IMG/VR virus record: IMGVR_UViG_3300033553_000428
Span: 1-23,678 of that record
Strand: one strand, 5' to 3'
DNA from: a virus
DNA: 23,678 bases
Position 1 is the stretch's first letter; every line of letters starts with the position of its first letter. The notes under the pieces are model-generated. The model was not told the origin of the DNA, made no database searches, and was given only the letters and a program-made list of their open reading frames with translations. Below, in pieces: positions 3,679-19,592 of this stretch. The translations under genes were made by a program, and so were the position numbers.

Positions 3679-5180
3679 GAAATTCGTGTCCTTAAGAAAT
3701 CTTCCAGAATCGTCGCGGCGGCTTCCCACCGCACTCGCAAGAATGGGTTGCTCTGCAGCGTGTCCGACAGAGCCTCGGACGGCACACCGTTTTCCATCAT
3801 GGTCGCCGCGAGGGAATAGACCAACTCTTCGAGGTCGGTTGCTGATGTTTCGTCAGCCGTGACCGCTTCCGCGTTCCCGACGAGTTCAGCATGCAGCGTC
3901 TCGATCGGCAGACCTGAACCGACAATGCGCAGGCAGCGCTCGAACCCCTCTCGCAGGTCTTCTGGCAATTGCTCGGCATAGGTTCGAAAAACCGGATGCT
4001 TAAGATTGGGACGGAAGACGATCTGCCCATCCTTCTGCACCCGATTCCAAATCGGGAAGCGGGTTTCATCCACCAGCTTCTGCCCCCGGCTCCGATACGT
4101 GCGCTTGGACGTTCCGACGAACCGCTCGACCACCTTCTTCAGTCGCTCACGCACCACCGGCGGCAGCTGGGCGGAGGCTTTCTTGACGTCGATCTTCCAC
4201 TCCGCATCCATCGTGTTCGGGATATCGACTGCGATCCGGCAGAGCTTCGTGAGTTCGGTCTGGCGCGCGAGACCCAGCCACCCGCCCGCGATAATGAGAC
4301 GTTTCTCACGATAGACGTAGAGGCCCTGAGACTTCAGATGCCCCTCCGGACCGCCAGTTTCTTCCCACTCTTCCCGGCTCATCCGCCTGTGATGGGGAAG
4401 CGTATGGCATCTGATCAGGACGTCTCCTTGACGCAGGCGAAGCACCTCCTCCGGGTCCTTTTGCGTGGCGGCATGCAACGTTGCCATGGGATCGATGGGT
4501 TTCAGCGGGCGACTGTTGAGTGACAATTTCAGACGTGGCTTGCCGCCCTCCAAGAAACGATGGAACACCAACCGCAGATGATGTTCTGCGCGGGACAACT
4601 CCGAATTCATGTGCTCGGCCCGTTTCGCGCGGTCATGCGTATAGCCGCCACTCAAGCGATCGAGTTTCTCCCAGATGACAACCGTTCCGGTCTCCGCAAG
4701 AAGGTCATGACCCGTCACGACTTCCGGATTGTCAATGAGTTCGAGGCTCCAGTCGTTCCGTTTCGCAACGCGATCTAGGTCCCAGCGCGCGCAAGATGTT
4801 CGACCGTCTTGTCGCGTCAGAACCGTCAGACTTCGGCACTGCGAGAAGCTGGCACTCTTGAGGCCGAGGCCGAAACGACCGAGGTCTTCGGCCTCGCGCT
4901 GGTCGGTCGGATTCTTCGAACCGAGACGCATAGCTTCGACCAGTTCGGCCTCCGTCATGCCTGAACCGTCATCTGCCAGCGCAATCCAAGGTTCGTCCGC
5001 AACGGTGTCGGCGATCAGTTCTACTGTTCGCGCGCCCGCGGTGATGGCGTTGTCGATGATGTCGGCGAGAGCTGTCTCGAGGGTGTAGCCAAAGTCCCGA
5101 TGACCCTCGATGAGCGACGCCGCGTATGGTGTCGCATCGACCTCTCGTGTCTTGGGCCTCAGATTCGCAGTATCGTTCAT
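3675..5180 (-). CDS. MORC/HSP90-like GHKL ATPase
   Basis: This 501-residue protein has an N-terminal GHKL ATPase domain. The N box is ADIIDNAI (39-46), the G1 box DDGSGM (70-75), and the G2 loop GRFGLGLKSAS (101-111). The remaining roughly 350 residues are likely a transducer-like and C-terminal region with no motif I can name. At the position of the catalytic Glu of MutL-type N boxes there is Asp (D40). Bacterial MORC-like ATPases of this kind are described in restriction-modification-like clusters with Z1 and PD-(D/E)XK proteins. It is the first gene of the three-gene defence operon and shares ATGA with the Z1 gene. There is no clear Shine-Dalgarno sequence before the ATG. A defence role comes from context; the ATPase fold is seen in the sequence. 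Confidence 0.88.
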   Translation of the reverse strand: MNDTANLRPKTREVDATPYAASLIEGHRDFGYTLETALADIIDNAITAGARTVELIADTVADEPWIALADDGSGMTEAELVEAMRLGSKNPTDQREAEDLGRFGLGLKSASFSQCRSLTVLTRQDGRTSCARWDLDRVAKRNDWSLELIDNPEVVTGHDLLAETGTVVIWEKLDRLSGGYTHDRAKRAEHMNSELSRAEHHLRLVFHRFLEGGKPRLKLSLNSRPLKPIDPMATLHAATQKDPEEVLRLRQGDVLIRCHTLPHHRRMSREEWEETGGPEGHLKSQGLYVYREKRLIIAGGWLGLARQTELTKLCRIAVDIPNTMDAEWKIDVKKASAQLPPVVRERLKKVVERFVGTSKRTYRSRGQKLVDETRFPIWNRVQKDGQIVFRPNLKHPVFRTYAEQLPEDLREGFERCLRIVGSGLPIETLHAELVGNAEAVTADETSATDLEELVYSLAATMMENGVPSEALSDTLQSNPFLRVRWEAAATILEDFLRTRIS

Positions 5181-5279: not shown

Positions 5280-5669
5280 TTAATTCCGTCTGAAGAGCGC
5301 CACTTGTTTTGTCCATTCCATTGGAAACAGCTCCAGCACGCGCGCCAGCGTCACATCCGGTCCCTGCGTGCCGTCGAGTATCCCCTCCACAATGCCTGGT
5401 GCAAGGAGCGTGAGCCGCAGCACCCTCGTCATGTAGGACGGCGCAATGCCCTCGCGCTCCGCCAGCTCGGCGATGGTCGTGAATTCGCCCCACTCCAGCA
5501 TTCGCTTCCAGCGAAACGCCCGCGCCAGCGCCTTGACCATCACGTTGTTAGTCTCACGCGACGGCGCTGCGCCATCCGGCATCTGCATCTCCTTTCGGCC
5601 GCCGCGCTTCACGAGGCGGAACGGGATGTGCACTGTCACCGTTTCCGGCACTGGCTTCGCGTGGGTCAT
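5280..5669 (-). CDS. Small HTH protein of the recombinase operon
   Basis: This 129-residue protein has a predicted helix-turn-helix in the middle (TIAELAEREGIAPSYMTRVL, about residues 64-83). The arrangement recalls the ParB/KorB-type HTH. Its ATG overlaps the recombinase stop as ATGA, so it is probably translated from the same mRNA. Small HTH proteins of this kind commonly follow this class of serine recombinase in alphaproteobacteria. A role as DNA-binding accessory factor, directionality factor or repressor is inference only. The N-terminus has a basic stretch (FRLVKRGGRKEM) that could help in DNA contact. Confidence 0.75.
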   Translation of the reverse strand: MTHAKPVPETVTVHIPFRLVKRGGRKEMQMPDGAAPSRETNNVMVKALARAFRWKRMLEWGEFTTIAELAEREGIAPSYMTRVLRLTLLAPGIVEGILDGTQGPDVTLARVLELFPMEWTKQVALFRRN

Positions 5670-6973
5670 GCCGCCGTTCCTAGATCAGCCATCATTTCCT
5701 GTGCCAGCCCGGTCAGCCCGTCCATGCGGAGCCGAACATTGAGGCCATCTGTGCCGATGGCGACGCGCTCGACCACCAGCGCCACGATGCGTGCCTGCTC
5801 GGCGGGGAAGAGTTCATCCCAGAGCGGGTCAAGACAGGTCAGTGCCTCGCGGGTGTCGGCTTCGGTTATCTCGCTGTCCTGTGCGCCTGCGGCCTTCCAC
5901 GTGCCTGCCACGATTTCGGGTTGGCGGAAGACGGCTCGGAGCTGGTCTATGACAGCGGCCTCGATCTCACCAGCGGGGACCCGTCCAACCGGGCATGACC
6001 CAGCACCATGCTTGAGTACCGTCTGGCTGACATAGTATCGGTAGAGCTTGCCACCCTTGCGCGTGTGGGTCGGTGAGAAGGCCGCCCCGTCGGGGCCGTA
6101 GAGCAGTCCCTTCAGCAGTGCTGGCGTGTCGGCGCGGGTGTGCGCGGCGCGCTTGCGCGGGCTCTCCTTCAGGATGGCATGGACCTTGTCCCAAACCGCG
6201 CGGTCGATGATGCCGTCGTGCTCACCGGGGTAGCTGTCGCCCTTGTGGACCGCCTCGCCGATATAGGCGCGGTTGTTCAGCAAGCGGTACAGGTATTTCT
6301 TGTCGATCCGATTGCCACGGCTGGTCTGGATGCCGCGTGCCGCCAGTTCACGAGCCAATTCCGTTCCGGAGCCGATCTCGATGAAGCGGGCGAAAATCCA
6401 GCGGATGTTGGCGGCATCGGCCTCCTTGATGATCAGCTTTCGGTCCCTCACCTCATAGCCCAGCGGTGGTACGCCGCCCATCCACATGCCCTTCATCCGG
6501 CTGGCGCGGACCTTGTCGCGGATGCGTTCCGCCGTCACCTCGCGCTCAAACTGGGCAAAACTGAGCAGAATGTTCAGCGTCAGCCGCCCCATGGACGTGG
6601 TGGTGTTGAACGACTGAGTGACGGACACGAAGGTGACGCCATTGCGGTCGAAGACTTCGACCAATTTGGAAAAGTCCATCAATGAGCGCGACAGGCGGTC
6701 AATCTTGTAAACCACGACCACGTCGACCAGCCCGTCCTCGACGTCCGCAAGCAGCCGTTTCAGGCCCGGGCGTACCAGCGTGCCGCCGGAGATGCCGCCG
6801 TCGTCATACTGGTCGCGCACCAGCACCCAGCCCTCGGAGCGCTGGCTGGCGATGTAGGCCTCGCAGGCCTCGCGTTGGGCATGCAGCGAGTTGAACTCCT
6901 GCTCGAGCCCTTCCTCGGAGGATTTGCGGGTGTAGACGGCGCAGCGCAGCTTCCTGACGATAGGTTTGGTCAT
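5666..6973 (-). CDS. Large serine recombinase / site-specific integrase
   Basis: The protein has 435 residues from the ATG at 6971-6973, which overlaps the DUF2924 stop (ATGA); an upstream extension in frame lies inside that gene and is rejected. The resolvase catalytic motif CAVYTRKSSEEG sits at the N-terminus, with the nucleophile probably Ser18. DDGGISGGTLVRPGL and VVYKIDRLSRSLMDF follow, then FAQFEREVTAERIRDK. A recombinase domain and a ribbon-like region (LLYGPDGAAFSPTHTRKGG, then SCPVGRVPAGEIEAAV) come after. The ribbon lacks a usual first Cys pair. The family carries out strand exchange through a 5'-phosphoserine intermediate between attP and attB sites. It is likely the integrase of the island or of a sub-element. 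I could not identify att sites. Confidence 0.93.
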   Translation of the reverse strand: MTKPIVRKLRCAVYTRKSSEEGLEQEFNSLHAQREACEAYIASQRSEGWVLVRDQYDDGGISGGTLVRPGLKRLLADVEDGLVDVVVVYKIDRLSRSLMDFSKLVEVFDRNGVTFVSVTQSFNTTTSMGRLTLNILLSFAQFEREVTAERIRDKVRASRMKGMWMGGVPPLGYEVRDRKLIIKEADAANIRWIFARFIEIGSGTELARELAARGIQTSRGNRIDKKYLYRLLNNRAYIGEAVHKGDSYPGEHDGIIDRAVWDKVHAILKESPRKRAAHTRADTPALLKGLLYGPDGAAFSPTHTRKGGKLYRYYVSQTVLKHGAGSCPVGRVPAGEIEAAVIDQLRAVFRQPEIVAGTWKAAGAQDSEITEADTREALTCLDPLWDELFPAEQARIVALVVERVAIGTDGLNVRLRMDGLTGLAQEMMADLGTAA

Positions 6974-7425
6974 GATGTCCTCCGATGGTTTTTCAGGCCA
7001 AAGAACACCCAGCCATTCCAGCGGGTGCCGGTGATGGCGCGGGCAATGGCCGAGAGCGACCTGTAGGGCCGGCCCTGCCATTCGAAGCCATCGGCGGTGA
7101 CCGTGACGATCTGCTCCACGCCCTGCCACTCGCGCAGCAGCCGGGTGCCGGCGATCGGACGGTCGCGATCGGCCCGCATGCCGCTCTTCTTGCGATCCCC
7201 GCCGTCGAGCTGTTCACCCAGGGCTTCCAGCCGCTTCACGGTCTCGCGCTTGAGCCCGCCATAGGTGAGCTCCTGGATCCGATAGGCCAGGCGGCTTTCG
7301 AGATACCTGCGGTTGAAGGGCGGCGGCTCGCAGTCGAAGAGCGCGCGCCATTGCTGCTTCAGGTCCGGCGTCGAGGAGGTCTTCAGGGCGGCGAGTCGGG
7401 CAGGGATGGGATCTGGCTTGATCAT
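6970..7425 (-). CDS. DUF2924 family protein
   Basis: This 151-residue protein matches the DUF2924 pattern: an N-terminal helical part (LESRLAYRIQELTYGGL), then TVTADGFEWQGRPYRSLSAIA and ITGTRWNGWVFFGL near the C-terminus. Such proteins occur beside large serine recombinases in many alphaproteobacteria; their function is unknown, though a DNA-binding or recombination accessory role is plausible. Both ends overlap neighbours by 4 nt (ATGA), so it is part of the coupled recombinase operon. The final basic NHRRTS overlaps the recombinase start. Confidence 0.88.
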   Translation of the reverse strand: MIKPDPIPARLAALKTSSTPDLKQQWRALFDCEPPPFNRRYLESRLAYRIQELTYGGLKRETVKRLEALGEQLDGGDRKKSGMRADRDRPIAGTRLLREWQGVEQIVTVTADGFEWQGRPYRSLSAIARAITGTRWNGWVFFGLKNHRRTS

Positions 7426-7625: not shown

Positions 7626-7762
7626 GCGGGCCTCGGTTCTGTCGTCTCCTTTGACCTCTACTCACCCGCATAGAAATCTGTCCCAGCCGATCCCGGGGAG
7701 GTTGAAGAATCGAATTGGAGAACGTAGCAAGAACACCGGTTTTGCAGAAAAGGGGATTCGTC

Positions 7763-9004
7763 GTGGCTGGCAATTTGAAGAAGTTCGTGAACCCCCGGTT
7801 CATAAAGACCATCGACCTGGCGCTGATGAAGTCGCTACTGGCGCGGCACGAGGGCAAATATGAGGGTTTTTCTCTCGACCTTCTCGACCAGGACGAGAAC
7901 ACCGCCCGTGACGCGCTGCAAAATCTTCTGACCGGGTCAGAGGACAGCTATCCGGAAGGGCTGCGCGGCGATTTGCATCGCATCGCCGAACTTGGCGACG
8001 GGAGGGGGCTCGAAGTCATCCAGACCCAAGCCGACCGTCAGGGCATCTGTTTATTTCCGGAATTGAAGACCGGTGATGAGGATACACCCAACAAGGCTCA
8101 TGATCCGAAACACATTGCGGTCCGCGCGTTTCTTGAGCATCCCGAATTGTTTGACGCCGCCGCCGATCATATGGCGATGCTCGCAGCCGATCGCCTGCAC
8201 GAATACGCCGGACGGGAGCGAGGGGCCACGATTGACCTGACGGAGGAAAAGGTCGAGTCTTTCCGGACGGCTGTCGCAGAACTGCTGCGCGATGCGTTCC
8301 AGGGAGACTATTGCCGCGTCGGCGATTACGCCGACGGCGACGAGATCAACCTCGTGGTCAGTCACGGCTCCTTGGTTTCGACCATGCCGGTCGTCGAGGG
8401 CCAGCAGGAGCGGGTCATAAGTGTGCGGCAGATTTCCCATGCCGTTCTGCGCTATTCGGAAAATACGGGAATGCTCCGGCTCGCCCGGATCAGGAAAGCC
8501 CACCAGCCAAAGATCGCTGAATTCTTCGCCTCGATCATCCTGGAGAAGCCGGGATTTTTCGATGGCGACGATGCACAAGACCTCTATTCGCTGCATCCGG
8601 TTGAACGCGCGGGCCCCGATTTCGCGTTTGATCACGCCTACGATCCCATGATCGATCGCGTTCTGATCATCGAGGCGGCCGCAGACCTCATGGTGCCTGG
8701 CAAGAAAGGATATCCGCGCGTGGCGCGCACGCTGCGGTCGCGCGACCTTGGCGGCGAAGCGCTTCGGCATTTTGATGGCACGTCTGTATCGTTTGCTGGA
8801 TCATGGCACCTGGGTGAAATCGTATTTCGGATCCTGTTCAAGGGGGACGGCAAGCGCCAACCCGAGGTTACCGTCAAACTGCGTCCGCCCGGCGTCGTGC
8901 AGTTCCGGCGGACCCAGCACGAAGCCCGCGTGATGACCTTGATCGAACGGAATGGACTGACGAATGACCGGGACGATTTTGCACTTATTGACGCGGCTGA
9001 GTGA
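7763..9004 (+). CDS. Unknown protein A of a two-gene pair
   Basis: I do not recognise this protein. I place the start at GTG 7763 (413 residues) because AGGGG lies 7 nt upstream; an in-frame TTG at 7715 would give 429 residues. It appears soluble, with no signal peptide or membrane segment. Notable parts are a mixed acidic N-terminal half, a segment VLRYSENTGMLRLARIRKAH that could be a sensor-like beta-rich domain, and a C-terminal segment ending DDFALIDAAE. The stop overlaps the start of the next gene by 41 nt, which points to coupled expression and probably joint function. It reads divergently from the recombinase operon across 137 nt. The location, between an integrase and defence genes, makes a defence or element-control role possible but unproven. 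Confidence 0.8.
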   Translation: MAGNLKKFVNPRFIKTIDLALMKSLLARHEGKYEGFSLDLLDQDENTARDALQNLLTGSEDSYPEGLRGDLHRIAELGDGRGLEVIQTQADRQGICLFPELKTGDEDTPNKAHDPKHIAVRAFLEHPELFDAAADHMAMLAADRLHEYAGRERGATIDLTEEKVESFRTAVAELLRDAFQGDYCRVGDYADGDEINLVVSHGSLVSTMPVVEGQQERVISVRQISHAVLRYSENTGMLRLARIRKAHQPKIAEFFASIILEKPGFFDGDDAQDLYSLHPVERAGPDFAFDHAYDPMIDRVLIIEAAADLMVPGKKGYPRVARTLRSRDLGGEALRHFDGTSVSFAGSWHLGEIVFRILFKGDGKRQPEVTVKLRPPGVVQFRRTQHEARVMTLIERNGLTNDRDDFALIDAAE

Positions 9005-9914
9005 GGCCGGCGACGACGCGATCCTGTCCGGTGATCTTGCCGCGCCCTTCTTCGGCGCGGCGTTCGATCGGCTCCTGGCGAAACGCATCATCGTCGAACA
9101 GGCACCGCTCGCCGATTGGGAGGTCTGCGATGCCTGCGAATGCGGGCTGCCGTGTCGGCCGATCCGGAAAGCAGGTGATGCATTTCGGGCTGAGTGTCCG
9201 CTTGATCGCCAACAGGACGTTGATCTCACCGAAGCCGATCTGCGCGTGTTTCGCATAAGCGGAGAGGCACTGGCATCCGCAATGGGCGCAGCGGCAGGGT
9301 TCGGCGCAGCCCCGAAACTCGCGACGGAGAAGGTCTGGAGGCTTGGTGACACGCCATCGGGGCGCGCAGTGTTTCTTGCGCTTGAGCCTGCAGCCCTGAC
9401 CGGCGATGGCATCATCGTATCGTTGCGCCAGGCGGCGCAGGGCTCGGACATCACGATCCTCGCACCGCAGTTGTCAGCGGAGGCTGCGCGGCGGCTCGAC
9501 GATGCGGGCTTCCATCTGATCGAAACCCTCGCGGTGCTGGTGCCTGCCTCGAAGGGTCTCGGTGTCGCAATCGACGTCGCGGCTCTGGCACCCGTCCCGC
9601 TGGTGCCCACGCTGCGCGTGCGGAGGGCGACCGCCGAGGTTCAATGGGACGGTCGCTCCGTCATTCTGTCGCGTCAGATTTTCCCTGTGTTTGAGCGCCT
9701 GCTGGAAAAGGCGCTGTCGCGCGATCAGGTTGCCTCCCAATCCCATGTCGAAGGCACAACGGCGCGCGAGGCCAAGGATCTGATCCGCGAGTTGCGCGAT
9801 GCATTCAAGGCTGCAGGGTTCACTGATGCCGAGAGCAAGTCCCTGATCGCGACCGTGCGCAATCGGGGTTACCGGCTTGGCGTCCCGGCATCCGAGGTCG
9901 TGGTCGAAGGCTGA
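8964..9914 (+). CDS. Unknown protein B: Cys cluster plus winged-helix C-terminus
   Basis: This protein has 316 residues. A cysteine cluster near the N-terminus (C55, C58, C60, C64, C78) could bind zinc. The middle part (VWRLGDTPSGRAVFLALEP and ITILAPQLS) looks alpha/beta. The C-terminal 90 residues resemble an OmpR/PhoB-type winged helix: RSVILSRQIFPVFERLLEKA, then LIRELRDAFKAAG, then ATVRNRGYRLG (296-306), the last being typical of the wing end of that family. No receiver domain is seen. I infer a DNA-binding regulator or sensor working with protein A. The start overlaps protein A by 41 nt and its ribosome-binding site is poor, so translational coupling is likely. It is not a standard two-component regulator. 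Confidence 0.8.
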   Translation: MTGTILHLLTRLSEAGDDAILSGDLAAPFFGAAFDRLLAKRIIVEQAPLADWEVCDACECGLPCRPIRKAGDAFRAECPLDRQQDVDLTEADLRVFRISGEALASAMGAAAGFGAAPKLATEKVWRLGDTPSGRAVFLALEPAALTGDGIIVSLRQAAQGSDITILAPQLSAEAARRLDDAGFHLIETLAVLVPASKGLGVAIDVAALAPVPLVPTLRVRRATAEVQWDGRSVILSRQIFPVFERLLEKALSRDQVASQSHVEGTTAREAKDLIRELRDAFKAAGFTDAESKSLIATVRNRGYRLGVPASEVVVEG

Positions 9915-10009
9915 TTAGCCGCTCTCTGTTGAAGTTCGGCAAGCCGATCCTCGCGACTTTCGCCGCAGTTGCTCCGGGGCGGAGATCGACCGGCGGCAAT
10001 GCGCAGTTA

Positions 10010-10028
10010 GTGACCTTTGCAAAGTCAC
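10010..10028. repeat. Near-perfect 19-bp palindrome in a convergent gap
   Basis: GTGACCTTTGCAAAGTCAC is a palindrome apart from one extra C. It lies in the 181-bp gap between two convergent genes (9915-10095). It has no adjacent T-run, so it is a weak terminator candidate; it could be an operator. Nothing else is apparent in the gap. Confidence 0.35.
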
Positions 10029-10095
10029 GATCTGCGGCATGCTCTAGTCCGAGGGCGGCCCCACCTTGGTTTCCTTGCTGCTGATTAATATTCGC

Positions 10096-11781
10096 CTAGA
10101 TTCTCCAAACACTCGAGCGCGACAGCTCTGAAACACGCTGGGTATTCGCCTCGATTACTTGATCAGTCAGGTCTTCAGCGTCGGTGAGGATTGCCGGTAG
10201 TCGGTAGCCATTCTCAATCAAGAGCCGTTTCTTTTCCGGGAAGGCCTTGTTCGCCAATCGGTCATTTGTGCGCTTGTCCACCAGCATCAGATTGCCGATT
10301 TGACCAACTATCGAAGCGTCGCGATCAGACGCCTGCGGCAACAAGTGCTCAATTGTGAGTTCGTCGCTTTCCCCTACTGCTGGGCTACCCTCTTCTTTTT
10401 GAACCTTTTTTAGAATGTATCTGACGAGGTCCTTCTGCGAGGTCTGCCCTCGTGTGAAGGTAATCTGGCGGAAATTCACATCAAACTCATCTGGGTCAGC
10501 CACTCTTTCGCGAAGCTTGTTTTCTAGTTCTTGCACGACCAGTGCTGTGCCTTCACCGTCTTGACTGTTGAACACTTGCTTGCCGAACGAAGCGAACATC
10601 CCAGAGATTCCCCCCGAGGAACGGGATGACGTTACCGCGTTGAAGGTAAAGTGAAATTTCTCGATCATCTCAATAGAATTACGTAAAACGCGATAGCGGA
10701 TGATGCCGTCGCGATACGACCGGATCAACGAAAGAATCCCAGGCGTCGATTGCTTGACCTTGAAGATCCGCAGCGCTTCGAGTGCCTTCGCCACTTCCTT
10801 TTCAGTACCGGTCCAACGGAAGTCTGGGTCGAAAATCGACCTCCAGTGCTCGGCATCGCTTGAGAACCGGTTCAGATGGTCGGCTGCGTTGGTCGCGTCG
10901 ATGCGTTCCCTTGCTTTCGTGAATGCCTTTGCCTTCGTCACGAAATCGTACCTAGACTGCCATGAGTGTACAACGAACTCGTCCGGGTCCAAGCTGCTCG
11001 GCGCACCCCTAATCGTATCGAGCACCCCACGCCATTTTAGCGTTGCATGGTCAACTTCAGTTCCTTCGTCGATCATTTTCTTGAAATGATTGCGGAGGAG
11101 GTCAGTCAGTGCGAGGTCCTTACCCCGCGTATTCAGTGTTTCGAAGATGGTGTAGGCGTCATTCTCGTTGTCGAGTGTCACGACTATGACATTGAGGTCT
11201 AGGACAGTATCTCTGATTTCAGTAAGCCAACGTTTGACTTCAGCCCTGTTTTCCTCGGGCGACCGTTCAAGATTGGCTTGGATCGTTTTCGTTCCTTCAG
11301 CTATCTTCTTCTTGAACTCCGAAAAGGCTTTTTCAATAGCTCTTTCCTCATCGCCTATCTGCGTCGCGATACTCGCCGGGCTGTCTTTCAGAACCTCCTC
11401 TTGAAGATATGGAAAACTCGTCTCAGTCTTGAGGACGTAGACAGTTCGTGCATCCCTATCTTTCTGCTGGATATATGCCTGTACTCCTTCCGCAAGGTCC
11501 GTCGCGTCGATGTTCTTGAAGCCTTCTCGCAACGCGCAGAGCAATATCGCGATGGTTGTGAGCCGTTGCTGGCCATCCACCACGAAGACTCTCGAGCGAT
11601 CGCCTTTGTACACGACCATAGAACCTATGAAATAGGTATCAGAAATGTTCTCGAGGACGTCGTTCCAAAACGCGTTTATGTGATCAAGCTCCCAAGAGTA
11701 GGGGCGTTGAAAACTCGGGATTTCAAAAACCGTGCCTTTTAATAGCGCCTCTATTGTTTGGTCATGGGACTCAATCTTCAT
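10096..11781 (-). CDS. DUF262/DUF1524 protein, GmrSD-like
   Basis: The protein has 561 residues from the ATG at 11779-11781, which has a strong GGGAGGTAAGG upstream; a GTG two codons earlier is the alternative. The N-terminal DUF262 domain carries IPSFQRPYSW (21-30) and the family motif DGQQRLTT (69-76), followed by FETLNTRGKDLALTDLLRN. The C-terminal DUF1524 domain has an HNH-like pattern: LTIEHLLPQ with H479, then GNLMLV and NKAFPEKK. Fusions of these domains resemble GmrSD, a type IV restriction enzyme that uses nucleotides and cuts modified phage DNA. It stands alone on the minus strand, facing away from the replication operon, and its GC looks lower than that operon. Restriction of modified DNA is the likely role, by family analogy. 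Confidence 0.9.
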   Translation of the reverse strand: MKIESHDQTIEALLKGTVFEIPSFQRPYSWELDHINAFWNDVLENISDTYFIGSMVVYKGDRSRVFVVDGQQRLTTIAILLCALREGFKNIDATDLAEGVQAYIQQKDRDARTVYVLKTETSFPYLQEEVLKDSPASIATQIGDEERAIEKAFSEFKKKIAEGTKTIQANLERSPEENRAEVKRWLTEIRDTVLDLNVIVVTLDNENDAYTIFETLNTRGKDLALTDLLRNHFKKMIDEGTEVDHATLKWRGVLDTIRGAPSSLDPDEFVVHSWQSRYDFVTKAKAFTKARERIDATNAADHLNRFSSDAEHWRSIFDPDFRWTGTEKEVAKALEALRIFKVKQSTPGILSLIRSYRDGIIRYRVLRNSIEMIEKFHFTFNAVTSSRSSGGISGMFASFGKQVFNSQDGEGTALVVQELENKLRERVADPDEFDVNFRQITFTRGQTSQKDLVRYILKKVQKEEGSPAVGESDELTIEHLLPQASDRDASIVGQIGNLMLVDKRTNDRLANKAFPEKKRLLIENGYRLPAILTDAEDLTDQVIEANTQRVSELSRSSVWRI

Positions 11782-12205
11782 CGTCACCTTACCTCCCTTT
11801 ACCTTGCAGTCATGGAGACTGGAGGAAATCACAATGTAAGCCAATGGGCAGAGGTGAATTTGCCCCACGCAGTTAGCTTCGCTTGTATCTGCATGACAGT
11901 TTGGTCCTGGACACACTAGTGCGGCTATGGCCATCTTTATGGTGCATCGCGCCCGACTGTCCTCTTTGGGCTGAGACCGGCCCGCTGCGCTCGGAGCATG
12001 AATGGCCGGCGGGCCGACCCGTCCACCCGCTGTGAGCTCGGAATTCGCTCTCGCCTGAGCTGCGTAATCTTCATTCAGCCTGACGGGCCGTGGGAAAGGT
12101 CTCGGCCCACCAAACCCCCACCTTATTCCCACCCCGTTCCCACCTACGAACCGACCGTATCCGGCACTTTGGGCTCATCAGAAACGATGACCGAGGCGCA
12201 CAGCG
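11782..12205. other. Intergenic region between divergent genes
   Basis: This 424-bp stretch separates the DUF262 gene (minus) from the sigma factor gene (plus). The DUF262 frame stays open 117 codons upstream, but that part looks random. An 8-bp inverted repeat, CGGCCCGC (11978-11985) with GCGGGCCG (12009-12016), could form a hairpin with a 23-nt loop. The right part holds the 11-bp tandem repeats listed separately. No convincing -35/-10 pair was found for either gene. Confidence 0.6.
12106..12149 (+). promoter_or_regulatory. Four tandem 11-bp repeats upstream of the sigma gene
   Basis: CCCACC occurs at 12106, 12117, 12128 and 12139, exactly 11 bp apart, each followed by a variable 5-nt spacer. 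The last unit ends 56 nt before the sigma factor ATG. Head-to-tail sites at 11-bp intervals are known for OmpR/PhoB-family regulators, and a possible member of that class is encoded at 8964-9914. I infer an operator array controlling the replication operon. Confidence 0.6.
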
Positions 12206-12802
12206 ATGCAGATCAAACTCTCCCCCGACGACATTGAAACCATCATCTCCGAGGCCGACACTGCCGCCCGGCGGCTACGGCGGCGTCTGGGATTGCCTGC
12301 CTGCGATCGCGAAGATCTGGGTCAGGATCTTCTGATCGATCTTCTGCGCCGCTTGCCAGCTTTCGATCCGGCACGCGGCAGTATCGGTGCATTCGCAGGT
12401 CTGGTCCTGCGCAATCAGTCCTCTCGGATCGCGATCCGGATCATGCGTGAACGCAGGGCGCAGGGTGGCGGGCTGCTGTCGCTCGATGCCCCCTCCGGCG
12501 GGGACGACCGGCGTCCGCTTGCCGAGACCATCGGTGAAGAGGAGGGCCTGTCGGCCTGGCATGGCCAGGCGACTAGCGCGCATGCCTCCAATGAGCAGCA
12601 TCAGGCCGTGCAAACCGCAATTTCACGGTTGCCGCTCGAGGATCGTCGCCTCTGCGCAGCACTGGCACATCGCCCGGTATCTGCACTGGTCTGCGAAGGT
12701 TTCGGCAGCCGGTCCGGGCTTTACCGCCGCCTTGCCGATCTCCGCTACGTCCTCACCGCCCACGGCATCGGTCCCTCCTGGGACGATGTGGCGGCGGCGT
12801 GA
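12206..12802 (+). CDS. Sigma-70-family-like sigma factor of the element
   Basis: This 198-residue protein has a region 2-like part, DREDLGQDLLIDLLRRL followed by FDPARGSIGAFAGLVLRNQ (about residues 34-71). A region 4-like C-terminus (AISRLPLEDRRLCAAL, then a possible HTH at VSALVCEGFGSRSGLYRRL) follows. The overall size fits short phage or ECF-like sigma factors. A weak GAGG precedes the ATG. It is the first gene of the long plus-strand operon and lies directly after the tandem repeats, so it may direct host RNA polymerase to element promoters. The region 4 match is weaker than region 2. Confidence 0.75.
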   Translation: MQIKLSPDDIETIISEADTAARRLRRRLGLPACDREDLGQDLLIDLLRRLPAFDPARGSIGAFAGLVLRNQSSRIAIRIMRERRAQGGGLLSLDAPSGGDDRRPLAETIGEEEGLSAWHGQATSAHASNEQHQAVQTAISRLPLEDRRLCAALAHRPVSALVCEGFGSRSGLYRRLADLRYVLTAHGIGPSWDDVAAA

Positions 12803-12824
12803 GTAGAGGGAAAAGGAGGAGATC

Positions 12825-13178
12825 ATGTTCATGGGAACCACACCATTCATTACGGTCCGCGCGAGCCGACCGCTTTCCGAGATCGAGTTCTGCGCTTGGG
12901 TGGCGCAGGCCATGCCGGGCGACCGACTGGAATACCACCGCGGCTTTCTGGCGATTGACATCTTTCCGGTGTTTTCAGGGCTGCCGGATCCGGCACGCGC
13001 AGAATTGAGCCGGCTTGGATCCCGCGCTTTCTGGGCCGCCGAGCAGGGTCTTGTGCATCTCGTGCAGGAACGCGTCGGGCCCGATCAATTCGCCTACATC
13101 GCTATCGCCCGGCCAAAACCGAAGGCTGCCGCCACCTCGCTGTCTGAGTTGCTGCTCGCCGAACAGAAGGCCGCGTGA
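12825..13178 (+). CDS. Small unknown protein
   Basis: This protein has 117 residues and no recognised domain. The start ATG at 12825 has a strong AAGGAGGA just upstream; a second ATG two codons later is possible. The sequence appears alpha/beta and soluble, with an Ala/Lys-rich C-terminus (RPKPKAAATSLSELLL). It lies 22 nt after the sigma gene and ends in TGATG with the next gene, so it belongs to the same operon. A role in element replication or regulation is guessed from location only. Confidence 0.7.
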   Translation: MFMGTTPFITVRASRPLSEIEFCAWVAQAMPGDRLEYHRGFLAIDIFPVFSGLPDPARAELSRLGSRAFWAAEQGLVHLVQERVGPDQFAYIAIARPKPKAAATSLSELLLAEQKAA

Positions 13179-13711
13179 TGCCCGCCTTCCAATCCTTTTT
13201 CAAAGAACACGGAGACTATTTCATGCCATTCCCCGAGAACACCCCAACGCCCGACGATCTGCCATCTCTCAGCGCCGCCGAGGTTGCGGCGCTGCCGGTC
13301 GAGTTGCTGGCGATCCTGCAGCGCGAAATCGACGAGCGTTTGAAGCGCGACAAGGCGGCCAAGACCCGCTTCGATGCTGGACTGGCGGTCCGGTACGCCA
13401 CTCGGGCCGCCGAGGAACGCCAGGTTCAGGCCAAGGACACCGGCACTGTCCGCTTTGATGACGGCGACTTTACTATCGTGGCCGATCTGCCGAAGCGGGT
13501 GGATTGGGATCAGGACAAGCTCACCGTCATGGTGCAACGGATCCGCGATGCTGGTGACGATCCCGCACAGTATGTTGATGTTACGATCAAGGTGCCCGAG
13601 CGCAAATACACGGCCTGGCCTGATATAATCCGGCAGGATTTCGAGCCCGCACGCACGGTGCGGCCCGGCACGCTGAAGGTTGCGATTGATCCGAACGAGG
13701 CTGCGCAATGA
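13178..13711 (+). CDS. Small unknown phage-like protein
   Basis: The protein has 177 residues from the ATG at 13178, which overlaps the preceding stop (TGATG) and has AGAAGG upstream. An alternative ATG at 13223, before PFPENTPTPDD, has GGAG upstream and would remove 15 residues. The central part (LLAILQREIDERLKRDKAAKTRF) is strongly helical and charged. The second half (TVRFDDGDFTIVADLPKRVDW, then VTIKVPERKYTAWP) looks beta-rich. I do not know its function. Confidence 0.7.
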   Translation: MPAFQSFFKEHGDYFMPFPENTPTPDDLPSLSAAEVAALPVELLAILQREIDERLKRDKAAKTRFDAGLAVRYATRAAEERQVQAKDTGTVRFDDGDFTIVADLPKRVDWDQDKLTVMVQRIRDAGDDPAQYVDVTIKVPERKYTAWPDIIRQDFEPARTVRPGTLKVAIDPNEAAQ

Positions 13712-14478
13712 CAGCGCTGGCTCATTTTCCCAACCCCGTCCAAGATCTGCCGAGCCTGATCGACCGTGCCGCCAGCATGCTATCGGGAGCCAAGAACGCG
13801 GCCGAGGTCCTCGAAGCGCGCGAAGCCGCCGGGCTGGCCTATGACATTGCCAAACGCGCCGCACGGCTGAAGTGCGCCAAGGCTGCACATGATGATCTGG
13901 TGGCGGCTGCACACCGTGCGCAGGCCGATGCGCTCGAAATCGAAGCTGCCGCGAAGCGCCGTCTGGCTGATGAATACGATGCGGCGCAGGCGCGCGGCGA
14001 GGTCATGGGCCGCGTCCGGAGCTGCGTTGGAGAAGACAACGCACCCGCCACCGCCGCTGATCTCGGCCTGCGCCGCGACCAGATCCACGAAGCCCGCCAG
14101 ATACGCGATGCCGAGGTTGTCGATCCTGGCATTGTGCGCCGCACGCTGGATGAGCGCCTGGAGCATGGCGAGGAGCCGACGCGCGCTGCACTGCGCAAGA
14201 TGGTCACGGATGCCGCCCTGCGGGGAATGCGCCCGCAGCGCAGGTCCAGCACTCGCCGGAATCCCCTCTATGTCCCGCCGACACCAGGGCAAGCGGCCTG
14301 GCAGCATGTGACCGGCACGTTTCGTGCTTTTGCCGAATGGGCCTCTGACGAGAACCTTTCCCTTGCGCAGCAGGGCATGCGTGCTGCGCGGGAAGACCCG
14401 TTTCACGACCTCGACGCCAAGGCCATCGCGGACGGGTCAGCAGCTTTCACAACAATCAAGGAGTGGTTCGATGCTTGA
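13708..14478 (+). CDS. Unknown helical protein
   Basis: This is a 256-residue protein overlapping the previous gene by ATGA. The first 110 residues are Ala-rich and helical and could form a coiled coil (SKLPR-like frames on other strands are shadows). Then come a possible DNA-binding part (AADLGLRRDQIHEARQIRD) and a basic stretch (GMRPQRRSSTRR). The layout (helical arm, then HTH-like segment) recalls ParB-like or plasmid-type DNA-binding proteins, but I cannot assign a family. It is in the replication operon. Confidence 0.7.
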   Translation: MTALAHFPNPVQDLPSLIDRAASMLSGAKNAAEVLEAREAAGLAYDIAKRAARLKCAKAAHDDLVAAAHRAQADALEIEAAAKRRLADEYDAAQARGEVMGRVRSCVGEDNAPATAADLGLRRDQIHEARQIRDAEVVDPGIVRRTLDERLEHGEEPTRAALRKMVTDAALRGMRPQRRSSTRRNPLYVPPTPGQAAWQHVTGTFRAFAEWASDENLSLAQQGMRAAREDPFHDLDAKAIADGSAAFTTIKEWFDA

Positions 14479-14968
14479 TAGCCAAGCAGCGGCTTTTGCC
14501 GAACGCGTCTGGGATTACGCATCCCGTCTGGGCAACAACGCCCCCAGGATCGCCGATGAGATGATGGAGGCGGCCTTCCCGCTGACCTGCACTCAGGCAC
14601 GACAGGAAGGCGCGCTGCGCATGCTGCGCACCGGGATCATTTCCGAGGTCAAGCGCATCCTGCGCAACCGCGATGACGGGCTTTATCAGGCGGATTTCGC
14701 AGAGGTTTGCGCGGCCTTCGCGCCGCTGGTGAAGGACCTGCGCTCGAAGTCCTACTTTGTTGAGAGCGCCGAGGAATACGTCGCGGTCCCGGACCTGATC
14801 GTCGAACCCGACCTGCTTGATGACGCGCGGCGGTTCATGCGGCGCAAGGGTATCGAATGCCTCACCGAGGCTGATCGCCTGGATGCGCTTTTTGCGGCGG
14901 TGATTGCCGAGACCGCGATCCCGCCGCATCCGAATTCCGATTTTAGCCCTCACAAAGGAGCCCAATGA
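14471..14968 (+). CDS. Unknown protein
   Basis: This 165-residue protein starts at the ATG at 14471, which has AAGGAG 7 nt upstream and overlaps the previous stop by 8 nt; a longer in-frame extension upstream is a shadow of the previous gene. It appears soluble and mostly helical, with TQARQEGALRMLRTGII and an acidic C-terminal half. No known domain was recognised. Its stop overlaps the next start. Confidence 0.7.
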   Translation: MLDSQAAAFAERVWDYASRLGNNAPRIADEMMEAAFPLTCTQARQEGALRMLRTGIISEVKRILRNRDDGLYQADFAEVCAAFAPLVKDLRSKSYFVESAEEYVAVPDLIVEPDLLDDARRFMRRKGIECLTEADRLDALFAAVIAETAIPPHPNSDFSPHKGAQ

Positions 14969-15714
14969 TGGCCATTTCTCTCGCGTCTCTGCGCACCACC
15001 TCGGTGCTCCAGCCGCCGCGCATCCTGATCCACGGGGTTGCCGGGGTCGGAAAATCCACCTTCGCGGCTGACGCTGGCGCGCCGGTGTTTATCATGACCG
15101 AAGATGGTCTCGGCAAATTGCAGGTCCCGCATTTTCCATTGGCAACCAGTTATGCCGAAGTGGCCGAAGCGCTCAACGCCTTGCTGGATGAGGGTCACGA
15201 CTATGGCACCGTCGTCGTGGACAGCGTCGACTGGCTGGAGCCGCTGATCTGGGCGGAAGCCTGCAAGCGCAACGGCTGGCAGTCGATCGAAACGCCGGGC
15301 TTTGGCAAAGGCTATGCCGAGGCGCTGACCGTCTGGCGTGAATATCTCGATAAGTTGAACGCGCTGCGCGACCAGAAGGGCATGGTGATCATCCAGATTG
15401 CCCACACCGACATCAAACGGTTCGATAGCCCTGAGCACGAACCCTACGACCGGTATGTGATCAAGCTGCAGACCCGCGCCTCGGCACTGCTGCAGGAGCA
15501 TTCCGATGTAGTGCTCTTTGCCAATTACCGGATCTCCGTCGCCAAATCCGATGTCGGCTTCAACAAGAAGGTGACCCGGGCGCTCGGGTCCGGGGCGCGC
15601 GTCATGCACACCGAAGAGCGTCCCGCCTTCCTCGCCAAGAACCGTTACGGCCTGCCAGACACGCTCGAGCTCAGCTGGGCCGAGTTCATGGCGGCCATGC
15701 CCCAATCCGAATGA
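14965..15714 (+). CDS. AAA_24-type RecA-fold ATPase, Sak4-like
   Basis: This protein has 249 residues. Walker A is GVAGVGKST (24-32), and a Walker B-like YGTVVVDSVDWL follows near residues 80-91. A third conserved stretch is KGMVIIQIAHTDIKRF. This matches phage nucleotide-binding proteins (AAA_24), some of which are Sak4-type RecA-like annealing proteins acting with an SSB and an exonuclease. The next gene is a DUF669 protein and a RecB-like nuclease lies two genes on, which supports a recombination role. AAAGGAG precedes the start; the next in-frame ATG is one codon later. Confidence 0.85.
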   Translation: MMAISLASLRTTSVLQPPRILIHGVAGVGKSTFAADAGAPVFIMTEDGLGKLQVPHFPLATSYAEVAEALNALLDEGHDYGTVVVDSVDWLEPLIWAEACKRNGWQSIETPGFGKGYAEALTVWREYLDKLNALRDQKGMVIIQIAHTDIKRFDSPEHEPYDRYVIKLQTRASALLQEHSDVVLFANYRISVAKSDVGFNKKVTRALGSGARVMHTEERPAFLAKNRYGLPDTLELSWAEFMAAMPQSE

Positions 15715-15735
15715 TACACCTGAAAGGACACGACC

Positions 15736-16251
15736 ATGGCACGTTTTGATACGTCATTTGACGCCACCAGCGTTGAACCCACCACCCCCTATGAGCTGTT
15801 GCCCGCCGGCAAATACAGCGCCCAGATTGTTGAGAGTGAGATGCGCGTGACCCGCAATGGCATGGGCCAGTTTCTCTGGATGATGCTCGACATTCTCGAT
15901 GGGCCCTACAAGGGGCGGAAGATCTTTGACCAGCTCAACCTGGTGAACCCCAACCCGACCACGGTCGAGATCGCGCAGCGCACGCTGTCTGCCATCTGCC
16001 ATGCGACGGGCAGGATGCATGTCAGCGACAGCGAGGAGTTACACCTGATCCCGATGACGATTCAGGTGAAGATCAAGCCGCCGAAGAATGGCTACGGGGA
16101 GAGCAACGCCATCGCCTATCTGCCACCCGAACGTGGGGGAACCCCGGCTGTTGCTGCCAAGCCTGCTGCAATCCCCGCAGCACCGCCGACAACCCAGGCT
16201 GCTGCCGCCCCGCCCAAGATGGCCTCCGCGCCTTGGAACAAAAAGAGCTGA
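15736..16251 (+). CDS. DUF669 ssDNA-binding-like protein
   Basis: This protein has 171 residues. The first 130 match the DUF669 pattern: LLPAGKYSAQIVESEMRVTR, GQFLWMMLDILDGPYKGRKI, then a helical part and IQVKIKPPKNGYGESNAI. A Pro/Ala-rich linker leads to a short terminal PWNKKS. The layout (folded domain, flexible linker, conserved tip) resembles single-stranded DNA-binding proteins. Its place just after a Sak4-like ATPase supports an SSB role, as known for phage DUF669 proteins. AAAGGA lies upstream. Confidence 0.82.
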   Translation: MARFDTSFDATSVEPTTPYELLPAGKYSAQIVESEMRVTRNGMGQFLWMMLDILDGPYKGRKIFDQLNLVNPNPTTVEIAQRTLSAICHATGRMHVSDSEELHLIPMTIQVKIKPPKNGYGESNAIAYLPPERGGTPAVAAKPAAIPAAPPTTQAAAAPPKMASAPWNKKS

Positions 16252-16257
16252 TGCACA

Positions 16258-16292
16258 GCGCTGCTCCGCGCCCCTGATCGACGGGGCAGCGC
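16258..16292 (+). other. Stem-loop between DUF669 and the next gene
   Basis: GCGCTGC (16258-16264) can pair with GCAGCGC (16286-16292); inside the loop, CCCC (16271-16274) faces GGGG (16283-16286). There is no T-run, so it is not a standard terminator. It may affect mRNA stability or processing in the 65-bp gap. Confidence 0.35.
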
Positions 16293-16316
16293 GCAAACCC
16301 ATCTGAGGATATTCCC

Positions 16317-16679
16317 ATGACTGACCTGCAAAACGCAGCCCCTGTGGCTGTGATCACCCCCGGCTTGCCTGAAGACCAGCGCCGGCTGATCGACCTCGAC
16401 GACGATATCGCCAAGATCCGCACGCAGATTGCCACCGCGGATCTGGCACGCCAGCGCGGCCACAAACCCATCGATCCCGACTGGTTCCACCGCGCGCGAA
16501 CCGCGCTACGCCACCTGTGTCGTGAACGGTCCGAGTTGCTTGCCAAAGGCACCGGCCGCCATCGCCGCGAAAAGCTGAAGGACGCCCTGATCGGCGTGCT
16601 GCGTGAACGGCACGATCCTGCGACCTGGGACGGCATTCTGGCCGAGGCACAGGCCCGCCGCGAACGGGAGGGATTGTGA
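16317..16679 (+). CDS. Small unknown helical protein
   Basis: This 120-residue protein appears helical and rich in Arg, with HRARTALRHLCRERSELL and a C-terminal basic helix. It is soluble and has no recognised domain. It lies between the SSB-like gene and the nuclease gene and overlaps the nuclease start (TGATG), so it is co-expressed. The function is unknown. Confidence 0.7.
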   Translation: MTDLQNAAPVAVITPGLPEDQRRLIDLDDDIAKIRTQIATADLARQRGHKPIDPDWFHRARTALRHLCRERSELLAKGTGRHRREKLKDALIGVLRERHDPATWDGILAEAQARREREGL

Positions 16680-17623
16680 TGGCTGATCTTCCCGCACCGC
16701 CCACGCCGACACTCACGGCCATTTATGCGTCCTATGAAGCCCGGCAGGGCGATGGTTTCCGCGACCATCTGGGCGCGTCGATCATTGGCAAATCCTGTGC
16801 CCGCGCGCTCTGGTATGATTTCCGCTGGATCACGCCCTCGCGGCATTCCGGTCGCCTGCTGCGCTTGTTTGAGACCGGACAGATGGAAGAGGACCGGATG
16901 GTCCGCAACCTGCGCGCCACCGGTGCCACTGTTCTGGAGCTGGATCCGGAAACAGGGCGGCAAATCCGCGTCGAGGCCCATGGCGGTCATTTTGGTGGAT
17001 CGCTCGACGGTGTGGCGCTTGGCCTGCTGGAGGCCCCGAAAACCTGGCATGTGCTGGAGTTCAAGACGCATGGCATAAAGAGCTTTGCCGATCTGACCGC
17101 GAAGGGCGTGGTGCAGTCAAAGCCCCAGCATGCCGCGCAGATGCAGATCTATATGTATCTCACGGGCATCACGCGGTCCCTCTACATGGCGGTCTGCAAG
17201 AACACCGACGCGCTGCATATCGAGCGGATCGAGGCTGACAGCGCTATGGCCGAGCGCCTCCTGGAAAAAGCCGGGCGTATCATCTTCGCCCAGCATCCAC
17301 CCGCACGGATCAGTGAGGACCCCGCATGGTTTGAATGCCGGTTCTGCGATCACCATGCCGCCTGCCACGAAGGTGGCGGGGCTGCCGTGACCTGTCGGTC
17401 CTGCCTGCATTCCACCGCAGTCGATGGCGGGTGGCATTGCGCCCGGCACGATCGAATGCTGGCTCCGATCGAGCAGCGTGCGGCCTGCAGCAAACATCTC
17501 TTCATCCCCGATCTTGTGCCGGGTGAGGTCACCGATGCGGGGAACGACATCGTCACTTACCGCATGGCCGATGGCTCCACCTGGTCAAACGACGCCCGCA
17601 CCACGGAGGCCGCACCATGCTGA
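16679..17623 (+). CDS. RecB/Cas4-like PD-(D/E)XK nuclease
   Basis: The protein has 314 residues from the ATG at 16679 (GGGAGG upstream, overlapping the previous stop). The nuclease core shows GGSLDG with D110, then LEFKTH with E127 and K129, and a helix QMQIYMY with Q154, the pattern of RecB-family exonucleases. The C-terminal third holds many Cys and His residues (CRFCDHHAAC, then CRSC), which may bind zinc or an iron-sulfur cluster, as in Cas4-like nucleases. Next to Sak4, DUF669 and a helicase, it likely resects DNA ends for annealing. Confidence 0.85.
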   Translation: MADLPAPPTPTLTAIYASYEARQGDGFRDHLGASIIGKSCARALWYDFRWITPSRHSGRLLRLFETGQMEEDRMVRNLRATGATVLELDPETGRQIRVEAHGGHFGGSLDGVALGLLEAPKTWHVLEFKTHGIKSFADLTAKGVVQSKPQHAAQMQIYMYLTGITRSLYMAVCKNTDALHIERIEADSAMAERLLEKAGRIIFAQHPPARISEDPAWFECRFCDHHAACHEGGGAAVTCRSCLHSTAVDGGWHCARHDRMLAPIEQRAACSKHLFIPDLVPGEVTDAGNDIVTYRMADGSTWSNDARTTEAAPC

Positions 17624-19371
17624 CCCTGCGCCCATATCAACAGGCCGCGATCGCTTCGATCTACGAATACTACGAGAACAAATCTGGCAACTGTTGCATT
17701 GTGATCCCAACAGCTGGCGGCAAGTCGCTCGTCATGGCCGCCTTCATCGAGGGCGTGCTGAAAGCCTGGCCGGATCAGCGCATCCTGATCGTGACCCATG
17801 TGCGCGAGTTGATCGCACAGAACCATGCCGAGATGATCGGGCTTTGGCCTGACGCACCCGCAGGCATCTATTCGGCGGGCTTGGGCAAGCGCGAGGCGAA
17901 GGCGCGCATCTTGTTTGCAGGCATCCAGTCGATCCATCGCCGGGCCCGCGAAATCGGCCACACCGATCTGGTGCTGATCGACGAGGCCCACCTGATCCCG
18001 GGCAATTCGAGCACCATGTATCGCCGCTTCCTGGACGGACTGGTGCAGGTCAACCCGGCGCTGAAGGTGATCGGGCTGACCGCCACACCGTTCCGTGTTG
18101 ATTGCGGCATGCTGCATGAGGGCAAATCGGCACTCTTTACCGACATCGCCTATGAGGCTCCGGTGCGCGAGCTGATCGATCAGGGCTACCTCAGCCCGCT
18201 TACTTCCAAGCAGCCCGCCACCCGGCTGGATGTGTCGAAGGTGGGCACCCGGGCTGGTGACTTCATTGCGCGCGATCTCGCAGCAGCAGTCGACCAGGAC
18301 GCCATCACGCGCGCGGCGATCGCCGAGATTATCGAGTACGGCAAGGACCGGAAGTCCTGGTTGGCCTTCTGTTCGGGCGTGGATCATGCGCGCCACGTTG
18401 CGGAGGAATTCCAGCGCCGGGGCATCAGCTGCCGCACGATCTTTGGCGACACGCCCAAGGACGAGCGCGATGCGATCATCGCCGCCTTCAAGCGCGGCGA
18501 AATCCGCGCGCTGGCCTCGATGGGCGTGCTGACCACCGGCTTCAACGCGCCCGGCGTCGATCTCATTGCGCTGTTGCGCCCCACGAAATCCGCTGGCCTC
18601 TATGTGCAGATGGTCGGTCGTGGCACGCGGCTCAGTACGGATACCGGCAAGGAGAACTGCCTCGTTCTGGACTTTGCTGGCAATGTCCGCCGCCATGGTC
18701 CGATCGATCTGGTCCGGCCCAAACGCCCCGGTGAGGGCGGCGGGGGCGACGCACCCACAAAGGTTTGCCCCAAATGTGAGAGCATCATCGCGCTCTCGGT
18801 CACCGAATGTCCTGACTGCGGATACGAGTTTCCGGCCCGTGAAGTGAAGATCGCGCCGACCGCCGCCGCACTGCCGATCCTTTCGATAAAAACGCCAAAA
18901 GCGCCCCAATGGCTGCAAGTGAGCGGCGTATCCTACACCCGTCACGACAAACGCGGCGGGCGGCCCTCGCTCAAGGTCACCTATAGCTGCGGGCTCAAAT
19001 CCTACAGCGAATGGGTCTGCATCGAGCATCAGGGCTACGCCCGCCAGAAGGCAACGGACTGGTGGCGCAAGCGCGCGCCGGGTTTGCCCGTTCCGCTCAG
19101 CGTGAATGAGGCCATTGCGCAGGCAGGCCATCTTGCACGCCCCAGCGACATCTCGGTCTGCCCCTCGGGCCGCTATTTTGAAATCTCCGGTTACAGGTTC
19201 GATCCATGCGCCAAACCCGCCCTGGCCTCTGTGCCGTCTGCCACCGGCAACCTCGCGGCTTTGGTTGGTTCGACGCAGGTTTCCGCGTCGCTGACCAGCG
19301 GCGGGACGCAAGTCGGCAGCACCTCTGCTCCCGCGCCTGCCAGAACATCTGTCACGGGAGGAAGGGCATGA
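17617..19371 (+). CDS. SF2 DEAH-box helicase with zinc ribbon
   Basis: This 584-residue protein has PTAGGKS (31-37), DEAH (122-125), TATPFR (155-160), and a motif VI QMVGRGTR (331-338), so it is a superfamily 2 helicase. A zinc ribbon follows with CPKC (384-387) and CPDC (398-401). After about residue 530 the tail is Ser/Ala/Gly-rich; it lies in the region that overlaps the next reading frame. The start overlaps the nuclease gene by 7 nt. It probably unwinds DNA for the nuclease or the replication complex. Confidence 0.9.
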   Translation: MLTLRPYQQAAIASIYEYYENKSGNCCIVIPTAGGKSLVMAAFIEGVLKAWPDQRILIVTHVRELIAQNHAEMIGLWPDAPAGIYSAGLGKREAKARILFAGIQSIHRRAREIGHTDLVLIDEAHLIPGNSSTMYRRFLDGLVQVNPALKVIGLTATPFRVDCGMLHEGKSALFTDIAYEAPVRELIDQGYLSPLTSKQPATRLDVSKVGTRAGDFIARDLAAAVDQDAITRAAIAEIIEYGKDRKSWLAFCSGVDHARHVAEEFQRRGISCRTIFGDTPKDERDAIIAAFKRGEIRALASMGVLTTGFNAPGVDLIALLRPTKSAGLYVQMVGRGTRLSTDTGKENCLVLDFAGNVRRHGPIDLVRPKRPGEGGGGDAPTKVCPKCESIIALSVTECPDCGYEFPAREVKIAPTAAALPILSIKTPKAPQWLQVSGVSYTRHDKRGGRPSLKVTYSCGLKSYSEWVCIEHQGYARQKATDWWRKRAPGLPVPLSVNEAIAQAGHLARPSDISVCPSGRYFEISGYRFDPCAKPALASVPSATGNLAALVGSTQVSASLTSGGTQVGSTSAPAPARTSVTGGRA

Positions 19372-19592
19372 TCGATCCCACCCCGAACGAGAGCGAGGCA
19401 ATGACCGTCGGCGGTTGCCAGGGCGGCGAATACCTCGAAAGCATCGGCAAGTCCGATCTTGCGACCCTGACCGAGTCCGAATGGGACTGCTTCCTTGATG
19501 CGGTTGTCACCGGATATTGTGATCACTTGCGTGAGCTTGCGGGCAGGGACCGCACGCGGCTCGACGCCATGACCCCCGAGGTACCTTACTGA
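19206..19592 (+). CDS. DUF6511-like zinc-finger protein
   Basis: This protein has 128 residues. The N-terminus carries a C9-x2-C12 ... C41-x3-C45 pattern (CAVC, then CSRAC) suggesting a treble-clef zinc finger. The C-terminal part (IDPTPNESEAM, GGEYLESIGKSDLATLTESEW) matches my memory of DUF6511. The first 166 nt overlap the helicase tail in another frame. An internal ATG at 19368, which overlaps the helicase stop as ATGA and has a strong GGAGGAAGGG upstream, could also give a 74-residue product without the finger. Function unknown. Confidence 0.75.
   Translation: MRQTRPGLCAVCHRQPRGFGWFDAGFRVADQRRDASRQHLCSRACQNICHGRKGMIDPTPNESEAMTVGGCQGGEYLESIGKSDLATLTESEWDCFLDAVVTGYCDHLRELAGRDRTRLDAMTPEVPY

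Follow-up and report, generated by a model that had tools for sequence, protein, structure and literature searches.

What binds the four CCCACC sites that stand one helical turn apart ahead of a phage sigma factor gene, and what would binding there control? The window examined here is a whole 23.7-kb contig (23,678 nucleotides) that carries, from left to right, defense genes, an integrase side, a pair of genes designated A and B, cargo, the repeat array, the sigma gene, and a replication operon. A first-pass annotation of this DNA had proposed protein B as the protein bound at the array, with the sigma factor and the whole replication operon under its control. We followed up this proposal by comparing the window with related elements, which are prophages found widely across marine Rhodobacteraceae and not present in the phage records searched.

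The phased array and its conservation

The integrase side (5280 to 7425, minus strand) contains a helix-turn-helix open reading frame (5280 to 5669), a serine recombinase gene (5666 to 6979), and a DUF2924 gene (7003 to 7425). The replication operon (12825 to 21874, plus strand) encodes Sak4, an SSB-like DUF669 protein, a Cas4-like exonuclease, an SF2 helicase, and a PrimPol-DUF3987 protein, with gaps of 65 bp or less between genes. In the complete relative G102, whose recombinase matches integrase phrog_95, the module runs on into ParB/methyltransferase, terminase (phrog_15 TerL), head, tape-measure, and tail genes, and the window contig ends before these. The presence in G102 of integrase, terminase, and head and tail genes identifies it as a temperate siphovirus-type prophage. 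MZA-type defense genes (relatives of MzaD, MzaC, and MzaB) occupy positions 3 to 5180 of the window on the minus strand, where the end of the contig truncates them, and for MzaB and MzaC the matches fell short of the NCBIfam cut-offs. The region that follows the PrimPol-DUF3987 gene, at 21878 to 22140, is AT rich (39% GC), contains ACTTACGTCA/TGACGTAAGT repeats, and is a candidate replication origin. Different repeats, CAGAATCC/GATTCTGG, are found in the same place after the primase gene of G102 (L122, about 8580 to 8800).

The array extends from 12106 to 12144 on the plus strand and consists of four CCCACC sites with an 11-bp period (12106 to 12111, 12117 to 12122, 12128 to 12133, and 12139 to 12144), which are the proposed binding sites of protein B and start at exactly the four positions given by the first-pass annotation. 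The number of CCCACC hexamers in the window is ordinary (12, versus 12.4 expected), and it is their phasing that is unusual. The window contains one case of a 6-mer recurring four times with constant spacing, and 60 simulated windows, in which periods of 7 to 24 were considered, produced none. No further match to the array with at least three copies was detected in the 3.87-Mb host genome that contains the window, and no DNA match to positions 12000 to 13200 was detected among plasmids.

Finding the same array in related elements had been suggested as a check on the proposal, and the array was indeed conserved: phased 11-bp repeats were found in 69 of 70 non-redundant sigma-gene leaders of related prophages, and the 70th contained a looser version. 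The last repeat copy was located 66 to 68 bp ahead of the sigma ATG in these 69 leaders, and the core of the repeat differed by lineage, being CCCACC, CACAC, YCCACG, CCCAC(A/G), CCCAG, or GACAGG. The repeats had been described as having no length variation, which is correct for the window but not for the other elements, where the spacing varied slightly. The first spacing was 10 bp in L003, L007, and L022, as it was in the CCCAG class, the GACAGG version in L024 had spacings of 11, 10, and 11 bp, and L068 had lost one copy and retained three. A scan of four stretches around the G102 element and of the CCCACC-class loci gave one array per element, and no second array was found elsewhere in the element for the CCCACC class. 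A second group of sigma-like proteins (L025, L026, and L031), 28 to 37% identical to the sigma factor of the window, had a different conserved leader with no CCCACC array.

Short tandem repeats can be made by slippage, and the three copies in L068 could be taken as a trace of that process, but the spacers differed among repeat copies while the cores were kept, and the array was preserved in several motif classes. We therefore give virtually no credence to chance or neutral tandem duplication, which is already refuted by the conservation of the array. A second possibility was that the repeats are iterons, with B as the replication initiator and the array as the phage origin, since four tandem repeats adjoin a replication operon without a recognized initiator. 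However, the array and leader were 61% GC with no AT-rich stretch that could serve for unwinding, AT-rich repeats were located instead at 21880 to 22140, G102 had its other repeats at the matching position after the primase gene, and the distance from the array to the sigma ATG was fixed. We regard the iteron reading as very unlikely and rejected the array as a replication origin on its GC content and on the other repeat-rich regions after the primase gene.

A search for a sigma-70-like promoter around the array found none. This absence is compatible with a promoter that depends upon an activator but is not proof of one, and the start site is thus not located. A conserved hairpin was identified between the array and the sigma gene (12169 to 12195, plus strand), partly covering the sigma Shine-Dalgarno sequence (GAGG, 12193 to 12196). 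Its folding z score ranged from -2.0 to -5.0 across the relatives, and with a hand-set pairing 86% of alignment cells were paired, compared to 31 to 45% when the pairing was slid along the alignment. Covariation was weak, and RNAalifold found no structure when run over the whole leader. This hairpin may modulate sigma translation.

Protein B and the inheritance of the repeat motif

Protein B (316 amino acids; 8964 to 9914, plus strand) is the proposed activator that would bind the array, and in every element for which both genes were available its gene precedes the sigma gene and shares its strand. Both profile searches and a predicted structure (mean pLDDT of 83.5) placed an OmpR/PhoB-type winged helix at the C terminus of B (residues 211 to 316; 9594 to 9911). 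The profile of this domain matched BaeR (E value of 3.4e-4) as well as CarR, CadC, and PhoB, and a Foldseek search with it returned 4b09 (BaeR; E value of 1.4e-5) and also 1gxp (PhoB on the pho box). Single-sequence Pfam matches for the winged helix were weak. The tentative description of B as a PhoB-like winged-helix protein was thus borne out by the profile and structural matches. The M. tuberculosis PhoP protein recognizes 7-bp sites with a 4-bp spacer and binds three or four of them in a row (PMC4832192), which fits the earlier suggestion that same-orientation sites one helical turn apart are of the OmpR/PhoB kind. The N-terminal domain of B contains four invariant cysteines (C55, C58, C60, and C78; 9126 to 9197, plus strand) that probably form a zinc ribbon. 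No receiver domain was matched in B by Pfam, and B does not fit a two-component response regulator.

Protein A, the conserved partner of B, is encoded at 7763 to 9004 on the plus strand by a gene that overlaps B by about 35 nucleotides. It was 44 to 88% identical among relatives and had no match in Pfam, NCBIfam, or PADLOC. A weak fold match of A to RdgC and CENP-N (E value of about 9e-4, low TM) was not relied upon. No relatives of A, B, or sigma were found among 50,697 phage records, and many were found in Rhodobacteraceae genomes and IMG/VR contigs.

The B gene had been placed 2 kb away from the array. This distance stands for the window, but it is due to an insertion of cargo, since only about 106 to 112 bp separate the end of B from the start of sigma in relatives of the simplest layout. 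The cargo of the window includes a GmrSD/DUF262 gene (PADLOC Orf5/HEC-06; 10096 to 11781, minus strand). Positions 9915 to 12105 correspond to a cargo hotspot that was either empty or filled to 0.9 to 4.8 kb in different elements, mostly with genes on the opposite strand and with the array left intact.

The differences in repeat core among lineages were then compared to the phylogeny of each part of the putative circuit. Four changes of motif class, the minimum number, were required on the tree of the B C-terminal domain, and seven were required on each of the N-terminal domain and sigma trees. The tree of the B middle domain also required four, equal to the winged helix. Natural swaps gave the same pattern. 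L018 and L105 were 90% identical in the N-terminal domain and 89% identical in sigma but 27% identical in the winged helix and 56% identical in the array, and L033 and L003 were 87% identical in the N-terminal domain and 91% identical in sigma but 46% identical in the C-terminal domain and 59% identical in the array. In L117, sigma was closest to that of the CACAC lineage (81%), and the winged helix (58%) and array (95%) were like those of L018. The partial Mantel correlation of the array with the C-terminal domain, given the N-terminal domain and sigma, was 0.46 (0 of 2,000 permutations), and that of the array with the N-terminal domain, given the rest, was 0.13. Because the rows used for the trees and Mantel tests are related to one another, the permutation counts are not true probabilities. 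In addition, B and the array are contiguous in cargo-free elements, so a single recombination event could carry both, which weakens each single swap as evidence. In many elements, the match between winged helix and motif is unbroken across varied cargo of 0.9 to 4.8 kb, which argues against pure hitch-hiking.

Since motif class tracks the winged helix of B and not its N-terminal domain or sigma, protein B is very probably the protein that binds the array, a conclusion that is drawn from co-inheritance and is not supported by binding data. An alternative is that the array serves not B but a regulatory protein of the host, of which CtrA, GcrA, and response regulators are examples. Phages of alphaproteobacteria do use host CtrA sites (PMC9437464), and OmpR-family proteins are known to bind direct repeats (PMC4832192). 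Such a regulator, however, would not explain why the motif changes along with the B winged helix among phages of one host family, and we judge this alternative to be highly improbable. The earlier claim that B binds the array and controls sigma is therefore supported by the conservation of the array and by the motif following the winged helix, with binding itself remaining an inference.

LexA box, predicted sigma promoters, and the proposed switch

Aligning the regions upstream of A revealed a second 11-bp direct repeat, GAAC-N7-GAAC, which has the form of a LexA (SOS) box (GAACGTAGCAAGAACA; 7720 to 7735, plus strand) and precedes the A-B operon. This form was present ahead of A-B in 52 of the 53 elements for which the region was available, in all array classes, and was also found upstream of the recA and lexA genes of the host itself. 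Both GTTC and GAAC consensus groups of LexA sites have been described in the related Dinoroseobacter shibae (PMC6473078), and Caulobacter likewise has LexA sites of the GAAC/GTTC type (PMC12700426). No sigma-70 promoter was found in a search upstream of gene A. From the position of the box, A-B should be repressed by LexA and released by DNA damage, although LexA binding and induction are inferred here; this would make B an activator and not a maintenance repressor.

The opposite assignment was also weighed. Here B would be the immunity repressor, bound at the array to silence the sigma-replication operon in the lysogen, and the winged helices and arrays that have been swapped would represent immunity types. 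A DNA-binding domain and its operator swapping together is just how immunity modules are generally known to behave, and searches of the G102 element and the window gave no CI-like repressor of the HTH_3 or S24 kind. Two observations nonetheless make this assignment unlikely. With a LexA box in nearly all elements, B should appear only once damage has occurred and should be absent from the lysogen, which is the opposite of what is expected for a maintenance repressor. In addition, no strong promoter lies beneath the array. With no HTH_3 or S24 repressor in evidence, host LexA may itself hold the lysogen.

The gene ahead of which the array lies (12206 to 12802, plus strand) encodes a phage sigma factor of the ECF type (198 amino acids). 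Region 2 matched PF04542 above the gathering score (E value of 3.9e-6), TIGR02937 matched residues 21 to 149 below its cut-off, and the C terminus was judged helix-turn-helix-like by eye only. Two predicted sigma-dependent promoters of the form TGGGAC-N15-TGAGTAG were found, one at 7655 to 7685 on the minus strand, facing the integrase-side operon, and the other at 12779 to 12809 on the plus strand, facing the replication operon. Both are exact matches to TGGGAC-N15-TGAGTAGAGG, there were two per element, and they were kept at both places across elements. Their scores in the window were 33.1 and 29.5, with the next best site scoring 0.6, and the sites of the window and G102 together scored from 26 to 33, with the next best below 2. 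In 397 genomes of the host family, the motif occurred 31 times, versus once for a reversed control. Although we infer that this motif is the phage sigma factor's own promoter, its use by this sigma is predicted from sequence alone. No TGGGAC-type site was seen before the sigma gene itself. The first-pass annotation had noted neither this motif nor the LexA box.

Because the final codons of sigma overlap the site at 12779, coding constraint may contribute to its conservation. In L177 to L179, L182, and L185 (G510, G538, and G094), the sigma gene was replaced by a different sigma-like open reading frame, and only the last sigma codons with TGGGAC-N15-TGAGTAG remained. Retention of the site where the sigma gene has been replaced argues that it is kept as DNA. 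Upstream of the replacement open reading frame, several of these five loci had GTCTAAC repeats that keep an 11-bp phasing (offsets 0, 11, and 33). As for control of the whole replication operon from the array, which had also been proposed, this remains plausible since positions 12206 to 21874 are tightly packed, but the second promoter-like site at 12779 suggests that sigma drives part of the operon.

We consider it likely that the array is the operator of the phage-encoded activator B inside a three-step lytic switch that would run from LexA to A-B, from A-B through the array to sigma, and from sigma to the integrase and replication genes. In the lysogen, host LexA would keep the A-B operon off at GAAC-N7-GAAC, and DNA damage would free A-B. 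Through its C-terminal winged helix, B would then dock head to tail on the four sites, each one helical turn from the next, and array-bound B would recruit RNA polymerase so that the sigma gene is transcribed. Sigma in turn would guide RNA polymerase to the two TGGGAC-N15-TGAGTAG promoters, turning on both the integrase side, for excision, and the replication operon. Sequence comparison established that the array exists, is conserved, and is inherited together with the B winged helix, and it also established the LexA box and both promoter-like sites; the binding, activation, LexA repression, and promoter use that would connect them are inferred.

A more speculative proposal, which is possible but which we hold with considerable doubt, is that the B winged helix and its four-site array form an exchangeable "password" module that is swapped as a unit among related prophages and stops their SOS-triggered lytic activators from cross-firing, in the manner of repressor immunity types but for an activator, with the phage sigma as a second tier that starts excision and replication together. 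A search of G510, G538, and G387 for co-resident elements of differing class yielded no resolved case, because several of the contigs were short or carried another sigma gene.

For a widespread group of Rhodobacteraceae prophages, these results provide a wiring diagram of the lytic switch that is complete and can be tested, with all three cis elements placed at base resolution. Elements that differ by a natural domain swap are also ready pairs for studying how OmpR/PhoB-type winged helices choose their sites (CCCACC versus CACAC, CCCACG, and CCCAG). If the swapping has been selected for the isolation of co-resident prophages, it would carry the idea of immunity types in phages beyond repressors to activators.

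Comparison with known systems

In the immunity modules of lambdoid phages, which consist of a repressor and its operators, DNA-binding specificity and binding sites are exchanged together. The same joint exchange is seen here, but B is predicted to be an activator released by the SOS response and not a maintenance repressor. B resembles OmpR/PhoB activators, such as E. coli PhoB at the pho box and M. tuberculosis PhoP, in its winged-helix fold and in head-to-tail sites with an 11-bp period, and differs from them in having no recognized receiver, a Cys4 N-terminal domain and a middle domain, the partner A, and one dedicated target.

In LexA-controlled lytic switches such as those of GIL01 and CTX (cited in PMC9437464), the first regulator of the phage is likewise governed by LexA sites of the host type; in the prophages described here, LexA would instead control a winged-helix activator, which would then turn on sigma. 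SigN of the Bacillus subtilis element pBS32 is likewise a LexA-repressed, damage-induced sigma factor on a phage-like element (PMC6751061). However, LexA represses SigN directly and SigN activates itself (PMC6751061), whereas here the A-B/array step would lie between LexA and sigma. GafA, which belongs to the gene transfer agent of Rhodobacter capsulatus, is a further Rhodobacterales regulator of phage origin that has sigma-like DNA-binding regions, but it acts via the omega subunit of RNA polymerase, and no such array was seen for it in the passages of that report consulted (PMC9638019). The individual parts of the proposed switch are thus of known kinds, and what is new is their combination and the exchangeable module of winged helix and array.
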